In this document: piece by piece, positions 21,398 through 24,617 of the stretch | Position numbering within the stretch: the first letter of the stretch is position 1 | How the letters are laid out: each line of letters opens with the position of its first letter | Assembly: GCF_001625365.1 (NCBI RefSeq) | Contig: NZ_LJJF01000001.1 | Span: 2,736,501 to 2,800,500 of the forward strand | DNA: 64,000 bases | Source of the DNA: Streptomyces sp. MJM8645 | GTDB lineage: Bacteria; Actinomycetota; Actinomycetes; Streptomycetales; Streptomycetaceae | Direction of reading: 5' to 3' | Position numbers and translations under genes: made by a program | Notes under the pieces: model-generated | What the model saw: the letters and a program-made list of their open reading frames with translations, nothing else | Database searches by the model: none | What the model was told of the DNA's origin: nothing

Positions 21398-21492
21398 CGA
21401 ACAACTATGACCCGTACGGACCCCTCCCCCCCTCCGCGTACGGCCGCGGGCCCGGGCGACAACCACCACCGGTCCGGACACTCTGCGCAGAG

Positions 21493-21521
21493 TTGACGTG
21501 AACACCAAATTTCGACATATT
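21493..21521 (+). promoter_or_regulatory. Candidate promoter of the MRYND peptide locus
   Basis: TTGACG (21493-21498) and CATATT (21516-21521) are separated by 17 bp, matching a housekeeping-sigma promoter at 5/6 and 4/6 positions. It lies at the start of an unusually AT-rich stretch (about 21480-21860) and would produce a leader of roughly 200 nt before the first pentapeptide gene. Confidence 0.5.
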
Positions 21522-21725
21522 CGCGAAATAATGCAGGTCGTGCGGTATGGGGAATACAATTCGCATTTCCCTCCCGAATTCGATGCACGCTTTGCCCGGG
21601 TTGGCTGGTTTGGGAAATTGATCCCGGAATTAACTCATGGACGGAGCCGAATGGCGGTGGTAGTTTCATTTCCATCGAGAGAAGCACCAGGGCTTCGAAC
21701 ATGAACAACCGGAGAGGAGACTCCC

Positions 21726-21743
21726 GTGCGCTACAACGACTGA
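21726..21743 (+). CDS. 18-nt pentapeptide gene, MRYND copy 1 (candidate RiPP precursor)
   Basis: GTG CGC TAC AAC GAC TGA encodes Met-Arg-Tyr-Asn-Asp. AGGAG (21715-21719, within GGAGAGGAG) lies 6 nt upstream, an excellent ribosome site. The same peptide is encoded again at 21839 with its own ribosome site, and a P450 gene and exporter follow on the same strand. This is the arrangement of biarylitide-type RiPPs, whose precursors are leaderless pentapeptides such as MRYYH encoded by 18-bp genes. Precursor status here is inferred from that architecture and from the exact duplication; a chance match of five codons twice within 113 bp, both with ribosome sites, is improbable. Residues 4 and 5 (Asn, Asp) differ from known members. 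Confidence 0.82.
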   Translation: MRYND

Positions 21744-21838
21744 AATCCCTGATGCCGATTGCACCGGCATCCCCGATGTCCGAACGTCGACAGTCCGCGC
21801 CAATGGCCGGGCGATTAAGCTCGGGTAGGTGAATTTCC

Positions 21839-21856
21839 ATGCGTTACAACGACTAA
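21839..21856 (+). CDS. 18-nt pentapeptide gene, MRYND copy 2 (candidate RiPP precursor)
   Basis: ATG CGT TAC AAC GAC TAA encodes the same Met-Arg-Tyr-Asn-Asp. AGGTGA (21827-21832) precedes the ATG by 6 nt. Relative to copy 1 the start codon, the third base of the Arg codon and the stop codon differ, while the flanks are unrelated beyond a few bases; that pattern suggests the peptide sequence itself is under selection. It is followed by a hairpin and then the P450 gene. If processed like biarylitides, Met-Arg would be removed and a modified Tyr-Asn-Asp tripeptide exported. Confidence 0.84.
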   Translation: MRYND

Positions 21857-21904
21857 TTATATTGCCCGAACCGCGGCAGAGCCCGGTATCGTCGGCGAGA
21901 ATTG

Positions 21905-21936
21905 GCGCCGGACCCGGATACGTCCGGGTCCGGCGC
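21905..21936 (+). terminator. Perfect 14-bp hairpin between the pentapeptide genes and the P450 gene
   Basis: GCGCCGGACCCGGA (21905-21918) and TCCGGGTCCGGCGC (21923-21936) pair perfectly around a TACG loop. There is no T tract. Located 49 bp after the second pentapeptide stop, it most likely acts as a partial terminator or 3' stabiliser that makes precursor message more abundant than P450 message, as is common in RiPP loci. Confidence 0.75.
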
Positions 21937-21998
21937 ACGCTCTTGGCCCAGCGAGAACATGGGCCTCATAGGCCGTTCAAGAATCCTAGGAATTGTCC

Positions 21999-23204
21999 AT
22001 GAAACTCCCGGTCCGCTATGACCCCCTCGACAGCTCGACTCTCGCCGATCCCTATGCGGTCTACGCGGAGCTGCGCGCGTCGGAGCCTGTGCACTGGCAC
22101 GAGAAGATGCAGAGCTGGGTGCTGACCCGGTACCGCGACTGCCAGATGGTGCTGCAGGACCCCGCGGTGTTCGCGACGGACTGGCGGCGGGCCGGCGAGT
22201 CGGTCTCCGAACCGTGGCTGAGCCTGCAGACCCTCGACCCGCCGGACCACGGCCCGCTCCGCAGCCTCTTCATGAACGCCCTGCGCGCCCAGGACCTGGA
22301 GGCCGTCGGCGAGCAGGGCGAGGCTCTCGTCGGGTCGCTGCTCGACGGACTGGAGGGCAGGGCGGAGTTCGACCTCATGTCGGAGGTCGTCGAGCCGCTC
22401 GCCCTGGCGACCATCTCGGAGCTCATGGGCATCGAGCAGCCGGACGTCAGGACCTTCGCCGCGATATCGGATGCCATCGTGCGGAGCATGGACGCCGGAT
22501 TGGCGCCCGAGACCGGCGGGGACGGAATCGAGACCGGTGCGGAACTCAGGAAACTCGGCATCGAGGCGCGCGGCCGACTGAGCGAAATGGTCGAGTCCTG
22601 GTTCACCACCAATCCGCGCCCCGGCCTGCTGGCCCATGTCGCCGGCAACCGCGCCGAGGTGGATGTCGCCGACGCCTTTGTCCGGAACACGGTGCGGGTC
22701 GTCTTCCAGTCCGGCTACAGCTCGATCGTCGCCGGTGCCGGAAATGCCATGCTGGCCCTGCTGGAGAACCCCGACAAATTCGAGGCGATGCGCGACCCGG
22801 CACTGCTGTCGAGCGGTTTCGACGAACTCATGCGCTATGACGCCTCGGTTCAGGGAACCAGCCGCATCGTCACCGAGCCCGTCACCATCGGATCCGTCCA
22901 GCTCAAGCGCGGAGACGTCGTCGTGGTGCTTTTCGGCGCCGCAAACCGCGATCCCGAAAAATTCACCAGCCCCGACGAAATCATTCTGGACCGGACACCG
23001 AATCAGCACATGGCATTCGGCCGGGGCCCGCACACCTGCGTCGGGAACCTGTTCACCCAGGTCACGCTGCAGGCGCTGATCAAGGCCATTCTGCGGCGCC
23101 CCACACGCCTGCGGATGGCCGGGGAGCCGCTGCGCCAGCGCACCGCGACCATGCGCTACCTGGCGACGCTGCCGGTCACCTTCCAGGCGGCTGCCGCCAC
23201 GTGA
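21999..23204 (+). CDS. Cytochrome P450, candidate peptide-crosslinking enzyme
   Basis: 401 residues; ATG 21999 has AGGA about 7 nt upstream (TTG 21993 is a poorer alternative). Bacterial class I P450: C-helix DPPDHGPLRSLF, ExxR as E276-L-M-R279 and heme-ligand motif FGRGPHTCVGNLF with Cys347. The I-helix oxygen-activation motif, usually AGxET/AGxDT, reads A245-G-A-G-N249, so the acid-alcohol pair is missing; this occurs in some P450s acting on peptides or by radical coupling. Redox partners are not encoded nearby. The gene follows two 18-nt pentapeptide genes and overlaps the exporter start by 4 bp. Expected role: oxidative modification, probably at Tyr3 of MRYND. The enzyme class is certain, the substrate inferred. 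Confidence 0.93.
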   Translation: MKLPVRYDPLDSSTLADPYAVYAELRASEPVHWHEKMQSWVLTRYRDCQMVLQDPAVFATDWRRAGESVSEPWLSLQTLDPPDHGPLRSLFMNALRAQDLEAVGEQGEALVGSLLDGLEGRAEFDLMSEVVEPLALATISELMGIEQPDVRTFAAISDAIVRSMDAGLAPETGGDGIETGAELRKLGIEARGRLSEMVESWFTTNPRPGLLAHVAGNRAEVDVADAFVRNTVRVVFQSGYSSIVAGAGNAMLALLENPDKFEAMRDPALLSSGFDELMRYDASVQGTSRIVTEPVTIGSVQLKRGDVVVVLFGAANRDPEKFTSPDEIILDRTPNQHMAFGRGPHTCVGNLFTQVTLQALIKAILRRPTRLRMAGEPLRQRTATMRYLATLPVTFQAAAAT

Positions 23205-24472
23205 CGAAAACGGATACGACGGCTCGCCCGACCCGGACGAGCGCTGCCCGGCTGGCCCTCGCCAGGGCGGTCCCGCCGGCCGGGCCGGTGCGCGGACTGA
23301 CGCTGTCCACGTTCCTGACCACCCTCGGGGACGGGCTGTTCGCCACCGTCAGCGTGCTGTTCTTTACCCGCGTGGTGGGTCTGCGGATGGTGGACGTGGG
23401 CATCGGGCTCACGGTTGCCAGCCTGGCCGGCCTGCTGGCGGCCCTGCCGATCGGACACCTCTCCGACCGCATCGGGCCGCGGCGGGTCCTGCTCGTCCTC
23501 ACCGTCGCCGCGGGGCCGGCGGTGCTGTGCTACCTGGTCGTCGGCTCCTTCTGGCCGTTCGCCGCCACGGCATGCGCGGTGGGCGTCGTGCAGCGGGGCT
23601 GCCGCACGGTCCTGCCCGCCCTGGTCTCCCTGATCGCCTCGGCCGAGGAGCGGGTGACCGCACGCGCACACCAGCAGGTCGTGAGCAACATCGGGATCTC
23701 ACTCGGTGCGGGAGCCGCCGGCCTGGCCCTGTACCTGGACACCCGGGCCGCGTACGAGGCGATGGTGGTCGTCGCGGCGCTGGCCTACGCGGGGTCGGCC
23801 CTCGTGCTGAACCGGATGCCCGTGCGGCATCCGCCTCCCGCGCACAGCGAGAAGCAGCCGCTGGGGGCCGCGCTCAAGGACCTCCGGTACCTGCGGTTCA
23901 CCGGGCTGAACGCCGTGCTGTCGCTGAACGGCGCCCTCATGGAGATCGCCATTCCGCTGTGGCTGGTCACCCACACCAAGGCGCCCGCCTGGCTGTTCAG
24001 CGCCCTGATCGTCCTGAACACGATCCTGGTGGTGGTCTTCCAGGTCCAGGTGAGCTCCAAGGGCAACGACACCACCCCGGGGCTGTGGGGGCGGATCTCC
24101 CGCCTCGGCGGGTTCTTCCTCGGCTGCGCCTGCCTGCTGTACGGCGCCGCCGGCTGGGGGAACACCCTGGTCGCGACCGCCGTCCTCGGCCTGGGGATGA
24201 TCGCCCACACGTGGGGCGAGATGTACCAGGTCTCCGGCGAATGGGGGCTCAGCTTCCAGCTCGCGCCCGAACACGCCACCGGCCAGTACCAGGGCGTCCT
24301 GGCCATCGGCCGTGGAGCCGCCAACGTGGCCGCGCCCGTCGCCCTGGTCGCGGTCGTCGGGGCCGGTCAGTACGGGTGGGTGGCACTGGCGGCCGTCTTC
24401 CTCGCGGCCGGGCTCGCGATGCCCGCGGCGACCCGGCTGCCCGCCGGCAAGGGCCCCGCCTCTGACGCATGA
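23201..24472 (+). CDS. MFS transporter, probable exporter of the modified peptide
   Basis: 423 residues with about twelve hydrophobic segments. The loop between helices 2 and 3 shows the MFS signature as GHLSDRIGPRR. GTG 23201 overlaps the P450 stop (GTGA), so the two proteins are translationally coupled. The N-terminal 25 residues are a Thr/Arg/Ala-rich cytoplasmic tail. Drug/peptide export (DHA-like) fits the family and context; substrate specificity is inferred from the operon. A strong hairpin closes the operon 45 bp downstream. Confidence 0.9.
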   Translation: MTKTDTTARPTRTSAARLALARAVPPAGPVRGLTLSTFLTTLGDGLFATVSVLFFTRVVGLRMVDVGIGLTVASLAGLLAALPIGHLSDRIGPRRVLLVLTVAAGPAVLCYLVVGSFWPFAATACAVGVVQRGCRTVLPALVSLIASAEERVTARAHQQVVSNIGISLGAGAAGLALYLDTRAAYEAMVVVAALAYAGSALVLNRMPVRHPPPAHSEKQPLGAALKDLRYLRFTGLNAVLSLNGALMEIAIPLWLVTHTKAPAWLFSALIVLNTILVVVFQVQVSSKGNDTTPGLWGRISRLGGFFLGCACLLYGAAGWGNTLVATAVLGLGMIAHTWGEMYQVSGEWGLSFQLAPEHATGQYQGVLAIGRGAANVAAPVALVAVVGAGQYGWVALAAVFLAAGLAMPAATRLPAGKGPASDA

Positions 24473-24516
24473 CCAGCACGGGGCCGCCCCAACCGGGTTG
24501 TAAGCCCTGACACCAC

Positions 24517-24562
24517 GATGCGCCGCACCGAACGACCGAGAGGCCGTTCGGTGCGGCGCATC
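24517..24562. terminator. Perfect 18-bp stem terminator between convergent operons
   Basis: GATGCGCCGCACCGAACG (24517-24534) and CGTTCGGTGCGGCGCATC (24545-24562) are exact complements around a 10-nt loop. It lies 45 bp past the MFS stop on + and 55 bp past the last gene of the peptide importer on -, so it can end both transcripts. Confidence 0.88.
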
Positions 24563-24617
24563 GCTTCGCTGTGAGGAACGCGGCGCCGGCCAGTACCAGC
24601 GCGTCCTGAAACACGCC

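Follow-up and report, generated by a model that had tools for sequence, protein, structure and literature searches.

Two 18-nucleotide MRYND genes beside a biarylitide-type cytochrome P450 and a transporter in Streptomyces sp. MJM8645, with a relative in a second genus

Results

The window analyzed here is a stretch of 64,000 nucleotides (nt) from Streptomyces sp. MJM8645 (contig NZ_LJJF01000001.1, positions 2,736,501 to 2,800,500), and it carries, all on the forward strand, two 18-nt genes for the same pentapeptide, Met-Arg-Tyr-Asn-Asp (MRYND), followed by a perfect 14-bp hairpin, a cytochrome P450 gene, and a coupled gene for a transporter of the major facilitator superfamily (MFS). Copy 1 (21726 to 21743) reads GTG CGC TAC AAC GAC TGA, and copy 2 (21839 to 21856) reads ATG CGT TAC AAC GAC TAA; the two differ at 3 of the 18 nt, in the start, Arg and stop codons, and every difference is silent for the peptide. 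Each start lies 6 nt behind a Shine-Dalgarno (SD) sequence, AGGAG at 21715 to 21719 for copy 1 and AGGTGA at 21827 to 21832 for copy 2. The hairpin spans 21905 to 21936, between the precursor genes and the P450. The P450 (401 amino acids) is encoded at 21999 to 23204, with the ATG at 21999 as its best start (the mechanical open reading frame begins at TTG 21993) and its stop codon at 23202 to 23204, and it is assigned to the biarylitide/RufO type by Pfam (p450), alignments, a tree, an AlphaFold2 model, and a fold match. The MFS gene (23201 to 24472; Pfam MFS_1), whose product is a presumed exporter, overlaps the P450 stop by 4 nt (GTGA). Direct reading, folding and Pfam bore out the first-pass annotation, which had named the identical pentapeptide genes with their different codons, the ribosome sites at this spacing, and the hairpin, P450 gene and coupled MFS gene on the same strand.

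The MRYND frames are not the product of chance. A pair of SD-preceded frames with the same peptide never arose in 5,000 dinucleotide shuffles of positions 21412 to 21998, and a lone SD-preceded M-x-[YW]-x-x frame arose in 1 of the 5,000. No such frame was found in the 600 nt upstream of any of 84 control P450 loci (86 loci minus L060 and L082, where the upstream DNA was too short), and together with the gene comparison with a second genome, given below, these results rule out a chance origin. A recent local duplication of one copy was also rejected, as the 30-nt flanks of the two copies match at 13 positions upstream, where the SD site lies, and at 5 positions downstream. Nor is there a hidden precursor with an aromatic residue at position 5 for this P450: the stretch from 500 nt upstream to 400 nt past the gene has no further 18-nt frame behind an SD site, whatever its sequence, and a wider scan with 1.5-kb flanks found no M-x-[YW]-x-aromatic frame of five to eight residues at the window locus.

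Protein searches turned up a single close P450 beyond the window genome, about 70% identical, in a genome of another genus (G195, locus L154), and the two P450 genes share 73% identity at the DNA level. This relative keeps the peptide intact. A single MRYND gene starts 206 nt ahead of its P450 ATG and equals copy 2 at 18 of 18 nt, in unrelated surroundings where just 5 and 9 positions of the 30-nt flanks match; a second MRYND copy was not found in the G195 locus. An MFS gene 62% identical to that in the window follows the G195 P450. At the other loci searched (L031 to L160), many of them with just 1.5 kb of flank, there was no MFS homologue at an E value of 1e-5. The search for MRYND frames upstream of P450 homologues that the annotation had proposed thus succeeded in a second genus, and altered pentapeptide frames in close relatives, which it had named as grounds for abandoning the idea, were not seen in the one close relative found. 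In about 1,000 distinct genomes, an estimate because the samples drawn overlap heavily, MRYND was present in 2, and among the matches listed in a scan of genome contigs, records near the window's own were absent. A conserved peptide paired with its P450 across species, one mark of a P450-modified pentapeptide in the broad sense of a ribosomally synthesized and posttranslationally modified peptide (RiPP), is found here in two genera, and we regard it as nearly certain that the MRYND unit is a real, selected unit of precursor, P450 and transporter.

Of 65 distinct related P450s, 44 are accompanied by an 18-nt M-x-[YW]-x-x frame with an SD site, no more than 500 nt upstream or 400 nt downstream, in a scan that admits just Tyr or Trp at position 3, so that the counts are silent on the composition of that position. 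Position 5 in these 44 frames was His in 33, Tyr in 8, Asp in 2 (both MRYND) and Ser in 1; this is the unbiased count for position 5, an earlier and wider frame scan having listed aromatic-5 frames and MRYND alone. The frame MRWSS at the RufO-like locus L141 was rejected as a precursor and judged a chance occurrence, the likely precursor, MRYLH, lying further off. Some of the 21 P450s without a frame are second P450s of tandem pairs some fall outside the family, and others of the 21 have a frame that is longer or lies further off (MRYDHCL, MRYLH and MRYWY). For the family P450s at L116, L117, L127 and L131, no convincing precursor was seen in the DNA scanned; the peptides of these enzymes may be longer or of a different composition. 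The overall pattern is not that of homologues consistently without frames, which the annotation had listed as a reason for doubt, these four loci notwithstanding. The tree was a quick one, with long branches flagged and with support from the SH-like approximate likelihood ratio test (SH-aLRT) only; in it the MRYND pair forms one clade (SH-aLRT 100) between aromatic-5 clades (neighbouring branches 89 to 93), and because of this nesting Asp5 looks derived, once. The tree grouping, the fold and the family scan all show that the P450 near the MRYND precursor belongs to the BytO family.

Longer frames were met in passing. A seven-residue frame, MRYDHCL, extended C-terminally of His5, lies 109 nt ahead of the start of the matched P450 at L151, L152 and L129, and at L007 (a reverse-complemented locus) a 27-nt frame at 1313, MQYVWPTD, stands ahead of a distant P450 and could be a longer precursor. 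In viral contigs, 32 stretches matched the pattern of P450 relatives and none was confirmed.

A hairpin such as that at 21905 to 21936 is common at related loci. Counting the window, 27 of the 34 loci with an upstream precursor have a perfect stem of at least 8 bp between precursor and P450 (0.79 expected from shuffles), and 24 of 34 have one of at least 11 bp (0.03 expected); a predicted structure in the myxarylin bytAO intergenic region is also listed by Hug 2021 (PMC8708641). The hairpin before the P450 probably sets the ratio of precursor to enzyme. Short frames and then a strong hairpin ahead of operon genes would also be the picture if the MRYND frames were leader frames and not precursors, with the hairpin attenuating the P450 and MFS genes. 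We find this highly improbable, as the same layout recurs across loci of the biarylitide-type P450 family, the peptide of the 18-nt myxarylin gene is a proven P450 substrate (PMC12951456), and MRYND fits the family pattern M-x-Y-x-x. The GC-rich hairpin 3' of the 18-nt gene is widespread (27/34 related loci) and might serve as a marker for unannotated precursors.

The AlphaFold2 model of the window P450 (predicted local distance difference test, pLDDT, 93.6) has as its nearest folds RufO with a bound pentapeptide (9duj) and then P450Blt; among solved chains, 22yx_A is the closest in sequence (302.8 bits) and is titled just "Cytochrome P450." RufO and P450Blt each hold a single pentapeptide in the distal pocket, where Tyr3 lies above the heme, and the positions named as holding the peptide in RufO are 84, 85, 172, 188 and 231 (PMC12186263). 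In the alignment, where L140 stands in for RufO, the window P450 keeps the RufO residues at all of these positions (position 84 is Gln in L140 and the window, and Glu in PMC12186263). The RufO contacts to His5 are changed, H235 to Gln and E239 to Ser, and RufO D169 is Val. The FG loop is altered as well. An insertion of 11 residues (171 to 181) in the window P450 and of 6 in the G195 enzyme (L154), with borders that depend on the alignment, leads into ELRKxGIEAR, common to both enzymes, whose last residue corresponds to RufO Arg188 (Arg191 in the window; insertion and stretch together at 22509 to 22571, forward strand), the residue that holds the peptide C terminus in RufO (PMC12186263). This site is occupied in just one of 63 other rows, the distant L007, by four residues. 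A 28-row alignment has 18 columns unique to the MRYND pair, 4 of them inside the FG insertion; since two rows about 70% alike are expected to share many unique columns, we place weight on the FG insertion alone. At RufO position 282, the pair has Ser and 25 of 26 others have Pro.

The single pentapeptide in the pockets of RufO and P450Blt (PMC12186263) also bears on the idea of a tyrosine-to-tyrosine coupling of two MRYND peptides, aided by the two precursor copies. The two identical genes in the window would suit such an intermolecular product, but the search of G195 gave one copy, and copy number varies at aromatic-5 loci too (MSYNH twice, MRYLH twice and MQWNY four times); we consider a dimer improbable. 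Another duplicated precursor was seen at L006, where two identical MSYNH 18-nt genes (1192 and 1311) lie upstream of the P450 of G020, a genome of the window genus.

Upstream of the precursor genes, a consensus scan gave a sigma-70-like match, TTGACG-17-CATATT, at 21493 to 21521 (forward strand, 9 of 12 matches), which is a possible cassette promoter. At the other end of the cassette lies a long GC-rich, terminator-like hairpin (24516 to 24563, forward strand) that is very stable, with a stem of 19 bp plus 2 and a fold z score of -6.76 for 24500 to 24575. It has no T-run and is for that reason absent from the list of the intrinsic-terminator scan. What the annotation had called an 18-bp terminator therefore stands as a stable hairpin, with the stem length and the missing T-run as corrections. 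An Rfam search matched no element.

Discussion

A biarylitide is defined by a biaryl link between aromatic residues (PMC12951456), and the largest published survey, BiarylitideFinder, requires aromatic residues at positions 3 and 5 (PMC13417212). MRYND has Tyr3 and Asp5, its sequence excludes a biaryl between residues 3 and 5, and by the printed definition the system is therefore no biarylitide. The likeness to the bytA/bytO systems (P450Blt and myxarylin) is otherwise extensive: an 18-nt gene, preceded by a ribosome site, for a five-residue precursor with Met1 and Tyr3; a hairpin between precursor and P450 (PMC8708641); and a single P450 that shares both fold and family. The differences are Asp in place of the aromatic residue at position 5, the FG-loop insertion, and the system's own MFS gene. 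The annotation's view that the locus belongs or is related to the biarylitide-type systems is supported by the grouping of the P450 with those of MxYxH/Y loci, by the RufO/P450Blt fold, and by the second genus. The nearest aromatic-5 P450 relatives, at 53% identity or less, are found at MSYDH/MFYDH loci, which also have an 18-nt gene and in many cases a hairpin but differ in His5 and in the lack of a homologue of the window MFS gene in the DNA searched. Those loci often have a Pgm1-type ligase alongside and show Asp4 motifs (PMC13417212); we found ATP-grasp genes beside L031 and none in the one gene scanned beside L155 or the two beside L157.

In Nocardia ninae NBRC 108245, a biarylitide-type P450 lies beside a pentapeptide with a nonaryl residue at position 5 (Sikandar et al. 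2026, PMC12951456). We compare that peptide by its description, and it may equal MRYND; the chemistry printed in the relevant part of that paper is that of the myxarylin P450 and not that of the Nocardia enzyme. The open-licence PMC literature yielded no paper that mentions MRYND, MRYxD or MxYxD. The annotation's suggestion that the precursor type was undescribed thus stands for MRYND itself as far as that literature reaches, and falls for precursors that are nonaryl at position 5.

In three-residue cyclophane RiPPs (triceptides), an aromatic residue is linked to the second residue after it, with Asp and Asn allowed there, and these peptides are made by radical S-adenosylmethionine (SAM) enzymes. 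The sequence Y-N-D would fit their spacing, with a P450 as the enzyme instead of a radical SAM protein. We read the locus as a self-contained RiPP cassette, putatively acquired and about 3.2 kb long, and an exported, P450-modified pentapeptide RiPP is, as a whole, a likely account of it. The two 18-nt genes would give one precursor, (formyl-)Met-Arg-Tyr-Asn-Asp, and the P450 would hold the whole pentapeptide with Tyr3 over the heme, like RufO and P450Blt, and then oxidise it. As there is no aromatic residue at position 5, a biaryl from Tyr3 to residue 5 is impossible, and the enzyme probably makes a modification other than the biarylitide cross-link. That Tyr3 becomes bonded to residue 4 or 5 is a serious possibility that falls somewhat short of being probable, and the aryl-to-aliphatic form of such a bond is put forward a little more tentatively still: an intramolecular tie with loss of 2 H between the Tyr3 ring or phenol and the Asp5 (or Asn4) side chain, which would give a three-residue cyclophane or an ether, would be the likeliest single product. 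Met-Arg would then be cut off by a host protease and the product exported by the coupled MFS protein, while the duplicated precursor gene, together with the hairpin ahead of the P450, would probably hold the substrate in excess over the enzyme.

RufO, which shares family and fold with the window P450, alters Tyr3 in MRYLH and forms no cross-link (PMC12186263), and the MRYND P450 could likewise alter Tyr3 alone, for example to a catechol, with the peptide possibly a carrier for a modified tyrosine, as in the supply of nitrotyrosine by RufO. We consider this unlikely. Among the cassette and flanking genes scanned by family there was no nitric oxide synthase gene and no peptide synthetase gene, and the coupling to an MFS gene suggests that the product itself exits the cell. 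The rufomycin pathway resembles the MRYND system in its fold (9duj) and in a five-residue substrate with Arg2 and Tyr3, but it draws nitric oxide from a synthase, and the absence of that gene from the MRYND cassette rules out nitration by the cassette. Where RufO has H235, E239 and D169 and its peptide has His5, the MRYND system has Gln, Ser and Val in the enzyme and Asp5 in the peptide.

Another proposal is that the P450 modifies Met1-Arg2 and leaves Tyr3 unmodified. It has its origin in P450BytO, which took nonaryl variants, including the natural one from Nocardia ninae, with a 2-Da loss on the first two residues (PMC12951456). However, P450BytO is not the cognate enzyme for nonaryl peptides, Tyr3 lies over the heme in RufO and P450Blt (PMC12186263), residues 1 and 2 are the removed leader in myxarylin (PMC12951456), and the conservation of Tyr3, Asn4 and Asp5 would be left unexplained, which makes a modification of Met1-Arg2 doubtful in our judgment.

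Several points nevertheless weigh against a Tyr3-Asp5 bond in an exported peptide. The -2-Da change that P450BytO makes on residues 1 and 2 of nonaryl peptides (PMC12951456) is the closest precedent and the chief reason for caution. The MRYND loci known number just two, we infer the product chemistry by analogy with related enzymes, the cassette has no peptidase gene, and the direction of MFS transport is presumed outward. Of the enzyme features, the loss of H235 and E239 is common to the MSYDH enzymes and does not track Asp5, Ser282 is just 1 of the 18 pair-only columns, and the Pro272Ser variant of P450BytO had normal activity (PMC12951456). We take BytO Pro272 as the equivalent of RufO position 282, and little rests on Ser282.

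The rule of aromatic residues at 3 and 5 makes the MRYND clade invisible to the published survey (PMC13417212), and the cassette suggests that 18-nt genes of other sequence are still uncounted. A natural P450 paired with an Asp5 peptide offers a direct test of how such an enzyme acts without a second aromatic ring, in contrast to the noncognate P450BytO and its puzzling N-terminal change (PMC12951456), and a cassette of two 18-nt genes and two proteins is easy to express. If the proposal is true, the Tyr3-Asp5/Asn4 bond would be a heme counterpart of radical SAM cyclophane chemistry, from the smallest kind of gene known, and such cyclophane or ether products would escape aromatic-5 search rules by design.

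The genes beside the window cassette are an IclR gene, a PF03458 gene and oligopeptide ABC genes. The PF03458 gene and the oligopeptide ABC ATPase gene are 3.2 kb apart in the window and less than 200 nt apart in 8 of 19 congener loci, where the block between these neighbours is absent. Arguing against acquisition, 2 of the 19 have a gap of 0.8 to 1.1 kb between both neighbours and 9 have no PF03458 gene within the 1.5-kb flank, and the empty site is therefore not universal. The oligopeptide ABC genes were rejected as part of the cassette, as the ATPase is 83 to 95% identical in 20 of 20 other congeners and abuts PF03458 in 8 of 19. In G195, the unit sits between a LysR gene and a glycosidase gene, and in 15 of 29 loci of G195 relatives the glycosidase gene has a LysR match next to it, in varying orientation. 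The occurrence of the MRYND unit at two unrelated sites suggests that the cassette was acquired by transfer, with the window site alone well supported as empty elsewhere.

At the G195 locus, a peptide deformylase gene, one of three in that genome, lies 37 nt past the MFS stop (L154, 5947 to 6450, reverse strand). The window locus has no such gene, and no match was found in the glycosidase loci of 29 relatives; the best match of the G195 protein is 61% in 25 relatives and 55% in the window genome. This deformylase may serve in deformylation of the precursor or in protection of the producer.

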